Positions 23,016 to 59,955 of a stretch of 64,000 nucleotides of DNA are shown piece by piece; the stretch's first letter is position 1; every line of letters begins with the position of its first letter. Origin of the DNA: an uncultured Vicinamibacterales bacterium (lineage in GTDB: Bacteria; Acidobacteriota; Vicinamibacteria; Vicinamibacterales; UBA8438); NCBI GenBank assembly GCA_958295905.1, contig OY282382.1:2194001-2258000 (forward strand), given 5' to 3'. The notes under the pieces were generated by a model, which saw nothing but the letters and a program-made list of their open reading frames with translations, did no database searches and was not told the DNA's origin. Position numbers and translations under genes: made by a program.

Positions 23016-24044
23016 GCAGCCCGTGGCAGTGCGCCGTGAAAGGCGCCATTCTTCAGCGGGTGCGAATCCCGCCCGGCAACTGTCGCTCCAGCCGGTAGCA
23101 GTCGGAGCGGACGATGGAGGCAACGACATCGGCTGAAGCACTCCGACGACAAAGGGCCGCCGAGGGCGGTTCAGCGACCATACGGGCCGTAGCGTGAGCG
23201 AACGCCGAGCAGGCCCCGAAACCTGCGTTGCGGAAGCCGACCCGCCTGTCACACGGGGAAGGCTGCCAGCGGTCGGGAAGCGAGCGACGGGAGCACCGAC
23301 CGGTTCCGCCGGGGTATTGGCGACGGCACGCATGGAGGAGGGGAATGGACGCAACACGGGAAGCCCCGCCGGTGGCGTGGCACGCGCCAACTGACAGCCC
23401 GCGAGGGTCAGGTCGGGCCGGTGAGGGTGGCGGAGAAGCTCGTACTACCGAGGAGGTCGGGTAACGCCGACGGAGGGAAGGAGCTTCAGGTGGAAGGGAT
23501 GGCGAAAGGGAGCAGGCTCACGGGAGTGGCCGACGGCCTATCACCCCGGAGATGAGCGGAAATGCCGGACGTCATCACATTCACAAGCGAAGGGGACGAC
23601 CCGAGCGGTCGCCGTCGTCAGGGCGTCGACAGGCCTGACGACGCACCGGTCCGTCCGGCGCAAGGGTGCGAGCTTGGTGTGCCACCGGTTCGCAAGACCC
23701 GCCCGCCGGTCGTGACCGGGAGCCCGTGTGCGAGCCGAATGATTCCACTGGAGAGCCCGGTGCCGGAAACCGGCACGCCGGGTTCGGAGAGCGGGGGGAG
23801 GAAACGTGCCCATGGGAATCGGACTGCGGCCTGGCTGCGAAAGCGCCGGACAAGCCACCGATTCCCTACCGGCTACGCGCCTCCCCTCGACTCTACAAAC
23901 TCCGCGGCGCGCCAACTGGCCGGCGGTGGCGCGGAAACGGCTCGGATCGGTCAGATTTCGGCGATTTTCGACCGCTGTACGACACGTTCTTGGGCCGAGT
24001 ACGGCCCCGGCCGGATGCGGCACAACTTCTGCCACGGACTGATA
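23016..24044 (+). mobile_element. 1-kb insertion: family C repeat split by a group II intron
   Basis: The insertion lies exactly between the two 184-bp repeats. Its ends, GCAGCCCGTGGCA and TGCCACGGACTG, are inverted repeats of each other. Without the intron, what is left (23016-23028 plus 23897-24044) matches the uninterrupted family C element at 43297-43458 on the other strand, at about 85% by eye. No protein-coding gene is present. Confidence 0.75.
23029..23896 (+). ncRNA. Group II intron without ORF
   Basis: The 5' end GTGCGCC fits the GUGYG consensus. Domain V is at 23753-23785: GAGCCCGG pairs with CCGGGTTC, an inner GCCGG/CCGGC stem closes a GAAA-type loop, with a CG bulge. Domain VI is extended: GAGCGGGGGGAGG pairs with CGCCTCCCCTC, and inside it GGGAATCGG pairs with CCGATTCCC. 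An unpaired A at 23890 is 7 bases from the 3' end CTAC, where a branch point is expected. The 868-base intron has no reverse transcriptase, so splicing or mobility would need help in trans. The exon junction agrees with the intact repeat copy at 43.4 kb. Confidence 0.82.
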
Positions 24045-34644: not shown

Positions 34645-35211
34645 TCATCGGTCGAGCTCCGTCCTGCGCTTGGCCAGGGCGGTCAAGATCTCGGGGGCTT
34701 CCTTGAGCGCCGCCAACGGGCCGAGCTGCGCGTCGATGTAGCGCCAGTCCAGAGTCCCCGCCTGCCGGACGATGATCCCCTCGATGTCCGCCCAGTCCCG
34801 GCCGCGTGCGGCGAACGCCTTCAGGACAATCAGGTCTTCCGCCGAGCAGGTGAGCAGGGAAACCTGACCCGGAAATGCGAACCGGCTCGTCCGCGCGATC
34901 ACCGATTCTTCGAACGGCAGCCCGCCGAGCGCGATGTCGATGCCGACGCCGGACCCGGAGCGCAGCAGCAGCACCCGGTTGATTTTCGCGAAACCGGCCG
35001 CATCGTCGATCCGGCCCTGGTACCGGTCGAGCAGAGCCTGGATGAACGCATCCTCGCCGCCGAAACCGGTCAGGAGCGTCAAGTCGACGTCGATGGTCTC
35101 CCGCGGCTCGCCCCAGCGCTGCAGGGCCAGCCCTCCGATGAAGCAGAAGCGCCAGCGCCGGCTTTCGCAGAAGCCCTGCACGTCGGCCGCCACCCGGATC
35201 AGCTCATTCAC
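34645..35211 (-). CDS. AbiEii-like nucleotidyltransferase (toxin-type)
   Basis: A 188-residue protein with the nucleotidyltransferase core: FCFIGGLALQRWG, TIDVDLTLLT (the two metal-binding Asp), GIDIALGGLPFEE (third acidic site) and SAEDLIVLKAFAARGRDW. This fits the AbiEii/AbiGii group of nucleotidyltransferase toxins. Its start overlaps the end of the small gene upstream by 8 bases, as in toxin-antitoxin pairs. The partner is not the AbiEi family, so the pair is only AbiE-like. Confidence 0.78.
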   Translation of the reverse strand: MNELIRVAADVQGFCESRRWRFCFIGGLALQRWGEPRETIDVDLTLLTGFGGEDAFIQALLDRYQGRIDDAAGFAKINRVLLLRSGSGVGIDIALGGLPFEESVIARTSRFAFPGQVSLLTCSAEDLIVLKAFAARGRDWADIEGIIVRQAGTLDWRYIDAQLGPLAALKEAPEILTALAKRRTELDR

Positions 35212-35461
35212 GACGGGAGGCCATCTTCATGAACCACCGCTGTTGCTCGACGAGGCCGGACGTCGGTCGGGGCGCGCGGGGGGGGACCGTGTAGTCCGCC
35301 TCGCCGCACAGGAGGGCGATCGCCCGCTGCTGATCGAGCCGACGCAGCTCCTCGCGCCGCACCCGTTCCAGCCGCGGCCCGGCCTGCTGCCAGACCTTCA
35401 CCCAGCGCCGCGCCAGGGCGATCTGATCGGGGCTCCAGTCTGCGAGCCTATCTTCGGCCAC
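35204..35461 (-). CDS. Small partner of the nucleotidyltransferase, putative antitoxin
   Basis: An 85-residue protein rich in Arg, Glu and Leu: WSPDQIALARRWVKVWQQAG then LERVRREELRRLDQ. It has no family I can name but is often what lies upstream of such nucleotidyltransferases. It overlaps the next gene by 8 bases. Antitoxin status is inferred from that layout only. Confidence 0.55.
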   Translation of the reverse strand: MAEDRLADWSPDQIALARRWVKVWQQAGPRLERVRREELRRLDQQRAIALLCGEADYTVPPRAPRPTSGLVEQQRWFMKMASRRE

Positions 35462-36264: not shown

Positions 36265-37350
36265 CTAGTCCCGCACCAGCGGGCGCCACGCGAGCTCCCA
36301 GCTCAGCGGCGCCTCCACCGGCAGGTGGCAGATCTCGTGGTCGCAGGCCTGGTACTCCAGCACCCCTTCCACCAGCAGGGTGGCGTCCGGCGCCGAGGCC
36401 AGCGCGTCGACGTCGCGGCGCATGGGGATCGTCACGTCCTGCACGAGCCGGAACGGCTGCTCGTAGACCGGCACGGTCTCGTCCAGAGGCTCGAAATGGT
36501 ACGTCTGCGAGGGCGGGTAGCTCACGTCGTGGCTCCGCAGGAAGTCCGGTGCGGTCAGGCGGAGGCGGATGACCCGATAGCTGTGGTCACCGGGCGCGTA
36601 CACGTGCATGTCGGTCTTCGGCGTCACGTCGACCACGAAGGACAGGCGATTGCCCGGCGCGACCACGTCGTCGGTGGCCCAGGCGAGCGCCTCGAGGTGG
36701 TCGGTGGTGACGCGGGTCGCGGCCCGGTCGGCGGCGCCGGCGAGCGCGTCCCCGAGGCGGACGGCGATGCTGGACACCGTGGAACGCTCCTGGTACGCCG
36801 CCTCGAAGAACCGCGCCGTCACCCGGCCGGTCGTGTCCAGCAGGAACGTGCCGGGATAGGGTATGCCGTAGAGCCGGCGCATCATCCCGCGCCGATCTTC
36901 GGGGGCGCGGGCCGGGTCCATCTCGTGGTTCAGCAGGTCGTAGGCGCGGATGGTGGCCGAGCCCTCGTCCGACAGCAGCGGGATCTCGATGCCGCGGGCG
37001 TCGGCGAACCCGGTGAGGGTCGCGACCGGATCGTAGGTGATGACGGCGACGCCGAGGCCCTGGTCCCGGAGCGCCCGATAGCGGCTTTGCAGCTCCACGA
37101 GCTGCGTCTTGCAGTACGGTCACCAGTCGGCCGAGCGGCTGAACACCAGCATGAGCCCGTTCGGCCCCATCAGCGAAGCGAGGTCCCGCGCCGCGCCGGT
37201 CTGGTCGGTGAGCGAGAAGCTCGGCGCCACGTCGCCGACCTGGGGGCCCATCCCGTCGACGTCCGGCAACGGCGGCGCCTGCGCCGTCGCGGGCGATACC
37301 GCCCCCAGCGCCAGCAGCCCGCAAAGCGTCGCGATACGCGTGATTCTCAT
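36265..37350 (-). CDS. Selenocysteine-containing redoxin fused to a DsbD-alpha-like domain
   Basis: Read through one in-frame UGA (37120-37122), the gene codes 361 residues from MRITRIATLCGLLALG (37350). A signal peptide is followed by an AhpC/TSA-like thioredoxin fold: GDVAPSFSLTDQTG, then VFSRSADW-Sec-PYCK with Sec77 in a UxxC motif, and LPYPGTFLLD-type strands (YGIPYPGTFLLDTTGRV). The last 150 residues resemble the N-terminal domain of DsbD, with EYQACDHEICHLPVE. A GCAGCTC-GTG-GAGCTGC hairpin 15 bases after the UGA fits a bacterial SECIS. Both halves alone would be incomplete, and the frame is unchanged across the UGA, so a stop is unlikely. Probable role: periplasmic peroxide or disulfide reduction. 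Confidence 0.85.
37089..37105 (-). promoter_or_regulatory. Putative SECIS hairpin
   Basis: In the mRNA, GCAGCUC and GAGCUGC pair perfectly around a GUG loop. The stem starts 15 bases after the UGA and its loop is 22-24 bases after it, inside the range for bacterial SECIS elements, whose apical loop carries an essential G. It is within the coding sequence, as required in bacteria. Confidence 0.6.
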
Positions 37351-37375
37351 CGATTCACATCTCCTGTCGTCTTCG

Positions 37376-37396
37376 CGCCCCGGTCCTGCCGGGGCG
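37376..37396. terminator. Perfect 8-bp hairpin, possible terminator
   Basis: CGCCCCGG-TCCTG-CCGGGGCG, without a T-run. It lies 26 bases upstream of the selenoprotein start and could end transcription from the quinoprotein gene upstream or attenuate the leader. The rest of 37351-37672 shows nothing. Confidence 0.35.
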
Positions 37397-37672
37397 TCAC
37401 CACACCAGCGTGGGTCGGGCGTCCTTGCGCCACCGGCCGGCCCCGTCCCGAAATTGCCGCCTGCGGCTGCCGCGTGGCGCCGGAACGACCCTGTCGGGAG
37501 TTCCGCGCGGCTTCCGCGGTCCCATCCCCTTTTATCATAGGCCCTGGCGGCGTTGCTCGCCGGAGATGGCACCGACCGCAGTTTACCGCGCTTCCGGTGA
37601 TCGCCGCGGTCGCGGCCCCGTAACAGATGGAGCGTTGGCTCCGGACGCTCGTGGAACATGCCGGGGCCTTGG

Positions 37673-39673
37673 TCAGGGCAGGGCGAGCGCCACCAGCTCC
37701 GGCACGTCGCCGCCCACCGTCAGCGCGATGTACTGCCGTCCCTCGTGCAGGTAGGTCATCGGCGTGCCGATGGGACCGGCCGGCAGGTCGACCGAGCCGA
37801 CGATGGCGCCGGTCGCCTTGTCGCGCGCCACCAGCCGGGGGCCGTCGTCGGTCCCCCCCGCGGTCAGCCCGCTGACGAGCAGCGTCTTCGTCAGCACCAC
37901 GCCGCCGCGGCCGTCGCCGCCGAGCGGGGGCAGGTCGAGGTCCCGCAGCAGCGGATGCCGGCGGATGCGGTCGCCGTCGCCGTTGGGCCGCATCCAAGCG
38001 TGCTCGCCCCGGGTGAGGTCGATCGCGGTCATGCGCGAATAGGGCGGCTTCAGCAGGGGCAGCCCGTTCGGCATCCGCGGCTGGACGCCGGCTGCGAGTC
38101 CCCGCATCGTGAAGCGGAGGTTGCCGCCCTCGGCGGGGTCCGGCGTGTAGTACTTCAGGACCGAGAACCGGTTGACCGACGGCACGTAGAGCAGCCCCGT
38201 CTCGGGATCCACGGCCGAGCCCGCCCAGCCCGCGCCGCCCCCGACGTGGGGGCGCTGAATCGTCCCCTGCAGGCCTCCGTCGCGGCTCAGCATCGGGGGC
38301 GAGAAGAGCGGCCCGAGGCGGAAGTTCCGCACCGCCTCGACGGCCATGGCGCGGATCTCCGGGGTGAAGTCGACGAGGTCGTCGACGCCCACCCCCTGGT
38401 ACTCGAATGGCGGCGGCTTCGTCGGGAACGGCTGCGTCGGCGACAGCACCTCGCCTTCCAGGTCGGTGTCGGTCTCGACCGGCCGCTCCTCGATGGGCCA
38501 GACCGGCTCCCCGGTCACGCGGTCGAAGACGTAGGTGAACCCCTGCTTGCTCACCTGCGCGATGGCTCGGACCGGGCCGGGGCGGCCCTCGACGGCGACG
38601 TCGACCAGGCTCGGCGCGGCGGGGAAGTCGTAGTCCCACACCCCGTGATGCACCGCCTGGAAGTGCCACATCCGCTGGCCGGTCTCGATGTCGAGGGCGA
38701 CGAGACTCTCGGCGAACAGGTTGTCGCCGGGCCGGTGGCCGCCGTAGTAGTCGCCGGTCGGCGTGCCCGTCGGCAGGTACACGTAGCCCAGCGCCTCGTC
38801 GGCGCTCATCGGCGGCCAGACGTTGGTGTTGCCCGAGTAGCGCCACGATTCGTTGCCCCACGTGTCGGCGCCGAAGTCGTCTCCCTGCGGCACGGTGCGG
38901 AAGACCCACCGCACGTCGCCGCTGCGGGCGTCCACCCCCTTGATCCAACCGGGCGGCGCCTCCTTGGCAATTACCCCGTCGGAGATGACGTTCGGGGTGA
39001 CCACGACCCCGCGGGCGACGATGGGCGGCGAAGCCACCCCCATCAGGTTGCGGCCCCGGTGGTTCGTGCTCCCGCGGACGGCGCGGGGGATGCCCTCCAT
39101 CAGGTCGACGCGGCCGTTGTCGCCGAAGCCGAGCACCGGCGCGCCGGTCTCGGCGTCGAGCGCGATCAGATACCCCTCGTGAGTCCCGAAGAAGATGCGG
39201 GCATCGTCCCCGCCGCTCCACCAGGCGACCCCGCGCGAGTTGTAGAAGTGGGTCGGCCGCCCGCCCCGGTAGACCTCCGGGTCGTGCACCCAGATCGTCT
39301 CGCCGGTCGCGGCGTCGATGGCCGCCACTTGGTGCAGCGCGGTCGAGATGTACAGCACCCCGGCCACCATCAGCGGCGTCGCCTGGAACATCCGGATCCC
39401 GAGGCGCGGAAGCTGCTCGCGCAACCCGTCGAGATCGAGCGACCCGTCGGCCGACGCCCAGCGCCAGGCAATCTGAAGGTCGTCGAAGTTGCCGGCGTCG
39501 ATCTGGTCGAGGGGCGAGTACTTGGTGCTGCCGGCGTCGCCGCCGTAGCTTCGCCATTCGCCGTCCGCGGCGCCGTGCTGGGCGTGCGCATCGGCCGGCC
39601 GGAGCGCGGCCGCGCACCACGCCAGGAGCATCACGGAAACGAGAACCGTCGAGCGGCGCCGGGTGCAGTCCAT
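37673..39673 (-). CDS. PQQ-dependent dehydrogenase (glucose/alcohol quinoprotein type)
   Basis: The start is taken at MDCTRRRSTVLVSVML (39673) because GGAGGTGAC lies 4-5 bases before it. A signal peptide is followed by GEWRSYGGDAGSTKYSPLDQ and a 666-residue propeller with MWHFQAVHHGVWDYDFPAAP and VYLPTGTPTGDYYGGHRPG. It is a close paralog of 26797 and 48409. It shares with 26797 the block GEPVWPIEERPV and TQPFPTKPPPF. Soluble periplasmic enzyme; substrate unknown. No cytochrome is adjacent. Confidence 0.87.
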   Translation of the reverse strand: MDCTRRRSTVLVSVMLLAWCAAALRPADAHAQHGAADGEWRSYGGDAGSTKYSPLDQIDAGNFDDLQIAWRWASADGSLDLDGLREQLPRLGIRMFQATPLMVAGVLYISTALHQVAAIDAATGETIWVHDPEVYRGGRPTHFYNSRGVAWWSGGDDARIFFGTHEGYLIALDAETGAPVLGFGDNGRVDLMEGIPRAVRGSTNHRGRNLMGVASPPIVARGVVVTPNVISDGVIAKEAPPGWIKGVDARSGDVRWVFRTVPQGDDFGADTWGNESWRYSGNTNVWPPMSADEALGYVYLPTGTPTGDYYGGHRPGDNLFAESLVALDIETGQRMWHFQAVHHGVWDYDFPAAPSLVDVAVEGRPGPVRAIAQVSKQGFTYVFDRVTGEPVWPIEERPVETDTDLEGEVLSPTQPFPTKPPPFEYQGVGVDDLVDFTPEIRAMAVEAVRNFRLGPLFSPPMLSRDGGLQGTIQRPHVGGGAGWAGSAVDPETGLLYVPSVNRFSVLKYYTPDPAEGGNLRFTMRGLAAGVQPRMPNGLPLLKPPYSRMTAIDLTRGEHAWMRPNGDGDRIRRHPLLRDLDLPPLGGDGRGGVVLTKTLLVSGLTAGGTDDGPRLVARDKATGAIVGSVDLPAGPIGTPMTYLHEGRQYIALTVGGDVPELVALALP

Positions 39674-39729
39674 CGTCACCTCCAGCGTCCACTATACTCG
39701 GGTCGTCGACCGTGGACGGTCGTCGATGC

Positions 39730-59331: not shown

Positions 59332-59955
59332 ATGGCCACCAGAATTCGAGTCCGCAAGGGCGATACCGAAGTCGAGTACGAAGGGAGCGAGCAGTTCCTC
59401 AGGACCGAACTCTCCAGCCTCCTTCAAGTCGTCTCGGCGTTCCCTTCGGGTTCCGGCGGCCAAGCCCCGCCGGCGGCCGCCGCGCCGAGCCCCGAAATCA
59501 CCACCACGGGCACCAAAGCCGCCGCCGCCCGCAAGAAGGCTTCCACCCGAAAGAGCGGCGGCAGAAAGACACCCGCGAGTCCCGCGCCGGCTCCTGCTGC
59601 GCCTGCTTCCTCCGGGTCCGCGGGCCGGGCCTCGGCCAGCCCGGAGGCGAAGACGCCGCCGGCATCCGGCAGTGCCGATATCGCCGCGAGGATCGGGTGC
59701 CGGCATGGCACGGACCTGGTGCTCGCGGCGTCCGCGCAATTGAATCTGCGCGGGGGACAGAAGACCTTTTCGCGGGGTGCGTTGCTGGCGGAGATGAAGG
59801 CCGCGGAGGAATACTACAAACCGGTCTACGGGAAGAATCTGAGCAGATACCTGAAGAATCTGATCAAGGATCGGCAACTGAGTCAACCCCGCCCGAACGT
59901 CTATGGTCTGACGGCGGCGGCGCAGCGGGAGATAGAAAAGATTCTGGCCGAGTAG
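59332..59955 (+). CDS. Hypothetical protein with Ala/Pro/Lys linker and winged-helix-like end
   Basis: A 207-residue protein. The first 40 residues are compact (IRVRKGDTEVEYEGSEQFLR), residues 45-120 are low complexity (KKASTRKSGGRKTPASPAPA), and the last 80 look like a small DNA- or protein-binding domain (GALLAEMKAAEEYYKPVYGK, then NVYGLTAAAQREIEKIL). GGGGAGAAGCTT precedes the ATG. No named family. A nucleoid-associated role is possible from the linker, but this is a guess. Confidence 0.6.
   Translation: MATRIRVRKGDTEVEYEGSEQFLRTELSSLLQVVSAFPSGSGGQAPPAAAAPSPEITTTGTKAAAARKKASTRKSGGRKTPASPAPAPAAPASSGSAGRASASPEAKTPPASGSADIAARIGCRHGTDLVLAASAQLNLRGGQKTFSRGALLAEMKAAEEYYKPVYGKNLSRYLKNLIKDRQLSQPRPNVYGLTAAAQREIEKILAE

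Follow-up and report, generated by a model that had tools for sequence, protein, structure and literature searches.

A very probable selenoprotein of Acidobacteriota that joins a UxxC redoxin to a DsbD-alpha-like domain

The gene at 36265..37350 on the minus strand of the window (the whole stretch of 64,000 nucleotides that was analysed) is almost certainly a genuine selenoprotein gene, in which UGA 77 is decoded as selenocysteine; comparison with homologous sequences supports this strongly. Its product of 361 residues is composed of an AhpC/TSA-type redoxin domain, which carries the selenocysteine, and a C-terminal domain resembling the alpha domain of DsbD. The DsbD-alpha fusion, its conservation in Acidobacteriota and its presence in three copies in the window genome all appear to be new.

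When TGA is read as U, the coding sequence is complete from the ATG at 37350 to the TAG at 36265. The frame of 361 codons is broken by one UGA alone, at codon 77 (37120..37122, minus strand), in the context RSADW-U-PYCKTQLVELQ; Sec77 thus occupies the first position of the U-P-Y-C motif. The preliminary description, in which the strand of the gene was not stated, had proposed that a single in-frame UGA splits one continuous protein and that ordinary gene callers would report two false genes. Both proposals were confirmed: reading with table 11 gave two ORFs, 37659..37120 and 37098..36265. The fusion gene is one of a class that standard annotation cuts in two. Residues ~1-25 (...SPATAQA; 37276..37350, minus strand) were recognized by eye as a probable Sec-type signal peptide, and residues 2-15 in this region form a helix in the structure model. 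From this N-terminal sequence, the selenoprotein is probably exported to the periplasm.

When 396 genomes of the phylum and a named genome collection were searched, 64 usable near-full-length homologs were obtained; one further record (L060), which has no in-frame UGA and is apparently frameshifted upstream, was excluded. In the aligned column, 37 sequences, including the window gene, have UGA and 27 have Cys, and no other residue is found. The UGA is shared across many genera. None of the 64 homologs ends at this position, as might have been expected of a true terminator: all run through it with UGA or Cys. Upstream and downstream of the UGA alike, dN/dS stays under 1; in the downstream part it is 0.10-0.40. 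The two ORFs from standard gene calling would also result if the UGA were a true stop or a sequencing error, or if the gene had decayed, the halves being separate or dead. This explanation is very improbable, because the same UGA occurs in 37 homologs of many genera with Cys in the remainder, the downstream part is under purifying selection, the SECIS is conserved and the Sec machinery is complete (see below). In addition, the upstream piece would be a fragment of 76 residues that ends within the redoxin active site. Readthrough of the UGA as Trp or another amino acid would likewise leave the frame continuous, but seems even more improbable: the replacement in this column is always Cys and never Trp, and the UGA tracks with SelA, SelB, tRNA-Sec and the downstream hairpin.

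Since 27 homologs manage with Cys, Sec is not essential for function. Seven Sec/Cys changes are needed on the tree, at least six of which are forced by well-supported branches. The Cys twins in sister genomes allow a controlled Sec/Cys comparison. Judged by this gene, the closest relatives carry the label Vicinamibacteria/Vicinamibacterales (phylum Acidobacteriota), and the fusion is widespread in this large, little-cultivated phylum. Single-domain redoxins from Hyphomonas, Colwellia and others match residues ~34-200 only. Throughout alignment A1, which has 42 members, Sec77 (or Cys77), Cys80, Cys336 and Cys341 do not vary.

Some further members and relatives should be mentioned. Two more fusion paralogs lie in the genome of the window, L112 (C1:4864639-4865715) and L113 (C1:787886-788860). 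Each has one in-frame UGA (SADWUPYC and SAVWUPYC, respectively), a similar hairpin sequence downstream and the C-terminal Cys pair, which brings the Sec copies of the fusion in this genome to three. An Acidobacteriota-type Cys homolog (L073) was found on a contig that bears the label of a Bifidobacterium breve MAG, probably through a binning or labelling error. The DsbD-alpha-like half alone (residues ~196-357), with no UGA, occurs in several relatives, for example at G116:C170:847-1338 and G355:C19:118571-119023; these frames are a separate family bearing that domain.

A SECIS-like hairpin, GCAGCTC-GTG-GAGCTGC (37105..37089, minus strand), follows the UGA. It forms a perfect 7-bp stem closed by a GUG loop, and its first base lies at +15, in agreement with the position given earlier. 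The bacterial SECIS model allows a loop of 3-9 nt, a stem of 4-16 bp and a UGA-to-loop distance of 16-37 nt (PMC13188914). The hairpin, with a 3-nt loop starting with G-U, a 7-bp stem and a UGA-to-loop distance of 21 nt, falls within these limits. When the mRNA around the UGA was folded, as the preliminary description had recommended, the hairpin was not unusual for this single GC-rich sequence (z -0.40; 61 of 200 shuffles were as stable), whereas its conservation among UGA homologs was clear. The case for a SECIS therefore rests only on comparison. The full 7-bp stem is kept in 31 of 32 distinct UGA homologs, against 2.55 expected when synonymous codons are sampled at the family's own usage, and in only one of 25 distinct Cys sequences. 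For Leu, the 5' arm of the stem uses CTC in 36 of 37 UGA sequences, even though these genes as a whole use CTG slightly more often. Covariation is weak, with one compensatory pair change from G-C to C-G (L049) and an equally high value in 18 of 500 shuffles, because the stem falls within the conserved peptide QLVELQ.

The sole Cys sequence with an intact SECIS-like stem is L039, from genome G293. Its neighbour on the tree is a UGA sequence, and G293 has no SelA, no SelB over the cut-off and no strong tRNA-Sec. For these reasons, L039 is likely to represent a recent Sec-to-Cys change.

The window genome (6.3 Mb in three contigs) carries every component that was sought for selenocysteine insertion: tRNA-Sec with the anticodon TCA (63 bits, above the gathering score), SelA (445 bits), SelB (332 bits including a second piece) and SelD (290 bits). 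Absence of these genes would have spoken against a selenoprotein. Among the genomes of the homologs, SelA is present in 40 of the 46 with UGA and in seven of the 30 with Cys (P = 2.6e-8, a pooled value that includes a few duplicated genomes and ignores kinship). Of the six UGA genomes without SelA, none lacks both SelB and tRNA-Sec: a SelB over the cut-off is encoded in five, and a tRNA-Sec of 68 bits in the remaining one, G317. Every UGA genome checked therefore carries Sec-machinery genes. In five checked Cys genomes without SelA, neither SelB over the cut-off nor a tRNA-Sec match over 51 bits was found.

The SelD of the window genome (L018, C1:874147-875073) also carries an NADH-dehydrogenase-like FAD domain, the fusion being a frame of ~847 residues with a CGGC motif. 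It is apparently of the Ndh-SelD type, which has been described as common in marine samples (PMC2398784). In genome G028, the fusion gene (L038), tRNA-Sec (59856-59946, opposite strand) and selA adjoin one another in this order within C15:58769-61322, an arrangement that suggests a compact Sec cassette. In G183, selA is the gene next to the fusion.

The redoxin domain covers residues 38-179 (36814..37239, minus strand) and was matched by Pfam PF00578 with E=1.4e-25 (90 bits; cut-off 26); its motif is WUPYC. The model of the whole protein had a pLDDT of 92.1 and a pTM of 0.85. Its closest folds are the peroxiredoxins AhpE and BcpB (Z ~19), and a ResA-like reductase scores nearly as well. Sec77 aligns with the first Cys of ResA and with the Thr of the AhpE TxxC motif, whereas the counterpart of AhpE's peroxidatic Cys is the invariant Cys80, the second position of UxxC (37111..37113, minus strand). 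This means that the protein is of the Prx-like UxxC type, and a classical TxxU selenoperoxiredoxin was ruled out. The active site had been described at the outset as that of an AhpC/TSA-like redoxin; the redoxin assignment stands, but the Sec occupies the first-Cys position of the thioredoxin/ResA type and not the peroxidatic one.

The fold search with the whole model returned the redoxin half only, and the C-terminal half was therefore modelled separately (pLDDT 93.7). The predicted structure leaves little doubt that this half, residues 205-361 (36268..36738, minus strand), has a DsbD-alpha-like, immunoglobulin-type fold. The top eleven entries of its fold search were all ScsB (Z 12.1) or DsbD-alpha (Z 10.1-11.1), the next other fold scoring 9.1. 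Pfam DsbD_N matches 40 of 42 family members at E<0.01 (best 9.9e-11); for the window protein alone, the score is 20.5 bits, which is under the gathering score of 25. A sequence search with the profile of this domain against solved structures gave no match. Cys336 and Cys341 in YQACDHEIC (36328..36345, minus strand) form a Cx4C pair that is invariant in the 42 aligned members. The earlier assignment of a DsbD N-terminal-type domain with its own Cys pair was borne out by Pfam at the level of the family and by the fold search. The membrane domain DsbD_TM (PF02683) was absent from the window protein and from the family in the Pfam search. The one DsbD_TM protein of the genome is a complete DsbD, including an alpha domain at its N-terminus. 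The fused domain matches this alpha domain with E=5e-8 and 24% identity; YQAC-x4-C is common to both, YQACDHEIC corresponding to YQACNDRMC in DsbD.

A mechanism may be proposed from these features. Directed by the hairpin just downstream, SelB and tRNA-Sec very probably decode UGA 77 as selenocysteine. The Sec77-Cys80 pair of the N-terminal UxxC Prx-like redoxin would then act on periplasmic disulfides and/or peroxides, with the fused DsbD-alpha-like domain serving as a built-in electron adapter. Cys336-Cys341 would be reduced by the membrane DsbD, a single copy in the genome, and would in turn reduce the oxidised Sec77-Cys80 selenenylsulfide. As a whole, an exported selenoprotein in which a DsbD-fed alpha adapter reduces a Sec-redoxin acting on disulfides or peroxides seems reasonably likely. 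In E. coli, free DsbD-alpha passes electrons to DsbC and CcmG. In the solved complexes 1jzd and 1vrs, DsbD-alpha is joined to DsbC or to the gamma domain of DsbD itself. The chain from DsbD through the fused alpha domain and Sec77-Cys80 to a disulfide or peroxide is inferred from these complexes and from the genome's DsbD. By analogy with E. coli DsbD, transfer of electrons from the alpha domain to the redoxin is quite likely, reduction of the fused alpha domain by DsbD itself is somewhat likely, and the substrate is most likely a periplasmic disulfide or peroxide. The Cys pair of E. coli DsbD-alpha, C103-C109, has Cx5C spacing; this difference from the Cx4C pair of the fused domain counts against the DsbD-fed model. 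Also against it, dsbD was not seen beside the fusion gene, either in the genome of the window or at the related loci examined.

The preliminary description had suggested a relay from Sec to the DsbD-like cysteines, that is, the opposite direction. A periplasmic thioredoxin-like donor would then reduce the Sec-redoxin, and the DsbD-alpha-like domain, receiving electrons or disulfides from it, would act on the substrate. Both redox pairs are invariant and either could face the substrate, but this direction is judged improbable by analogy: DsbD-alpha pairs in solved complexes (1jzd, with DsbC; 1z5y) with thioredoxin-fold partners that it reduces, and Sec normally occupies the attacking position facing the substrate. 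Accordingly, it is regarded as more likely that the DsbD-alpha pair donates electrons to the Sec-redoxin. Another explanation is that the protein is chiefly a Sec peroxidase, in which Cys80 or Sec77 attacks the peroxide and the DsbD-alpha domain recycles the enzyme. The nearest folds are indeed the peroxiredoxins AhpE and BcpB, and Cys80 falls on AhpE's peroxidatic Cys in the alignment. However, the TxxC motif is lost by the replacement of Thr with Sec, WUPYC resembles the ResA variant WCPHC, and the ResA-like reductase fold scores almost equally; a mainly peroxidatic role is therefore unlikely, if a little less so than the opposite direction of flow. Extending the proposal of a DsbD-fed adapter, it is conceivable, though doubtful, that Acidobacteriota run a selenium branch of the DsbD pathway: an old Sec-redoxin/DsbD-alpha family in which each client has its own alpha adapter, bypasses the alpha domain of DsbD and docks straight on DsbD gamma.

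Selenoproteins of the Prx-like thiol:disulfide oxidoreductase or "Redoxin family protein" type (PF00578, PF08534; UxxC) have been known since 2006-2008 (PMC1794560, PMC2398784), and UxxC Sec redoxins are listed in a 2026 review (PMC13188914). They share with the window protein the redoxin fold, Sec in UxxC, the downstream SECIS and Cys homologs. In the accessible portions of these three sources, a DsbD-alpha domain is not mentioned, whereas the window redoxin is fused to one. The marine fusion "Prx-like 3/Unknown_3" is reported to have three Cys and a CxxC in its added domain (PMC2398784); by that description it is set apart from the window protein, which has Cx4C. TsoB (NF045694) is also a selenoprotein with a DsbD-like part, tabulated in PMC13188914 as a rhodanese/DsbD fusion-like protein with a UxxxxU motif and two Sec. 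By this tabulated description it differs in the rhodanese and the UxxxxU motif; the Sec of the window protein lies in the redoxin and not in the DsbD-like part.

Among Cys-containing systems, AhpE/BcpB and ResA are alike in the fold of the N-terminal domain, and ResA also shares the W-C-x-x-C motif, but they are single-domain Cys enzymes and AhpE has TxxC where the window protein has UxxC. The N-terminal domains of DsbD and ScsB share the immunoglobulin-like fold (Z 10-12) and the C-terminal Cys pair, with YQAC..C as in the genome's own DsbD. In contrast to them, the window domain is not followed by a membrane part, is joined to a Trx-fold domain and has Cx4C spacing. No NCBIfam model scored over its cut-off on the window protein. 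No description of a redoxin/DsbD-alpha selenoprotein was found in the searchable literature, which is weak evidence of novelty, many journals being outside its coverage. With this fusion, the prokaryotic selenoproteome gains a two-domain architecture that ties selenocysteine chemistry to the periplasmic DsbD reductive pathway.

Gene neighbourhoods were compared at 16 loci; apart from selA, seen in two genomes, distant relatives had no partner gene in common. A PQQ-dependent dehydrogenase-type beta-propeller gene (37673-39679, minus strand) lies immediately upstream of the selenoprotein gene in the window. A similar gene precedes the fusion at L051; this is not so in more distant relatives. Elsewhere in the window, matches to group II intron RNA (RF02003 and RF00029) are located at 23054-23867 on the plus strand. 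An AbiEii-like nucleotidyltransferase gene at 34645-35461 on the minus strand overlaps a small upstream ORF (35204-35461), and the two possibly form a type IV toxin-antitoxin-like pair.
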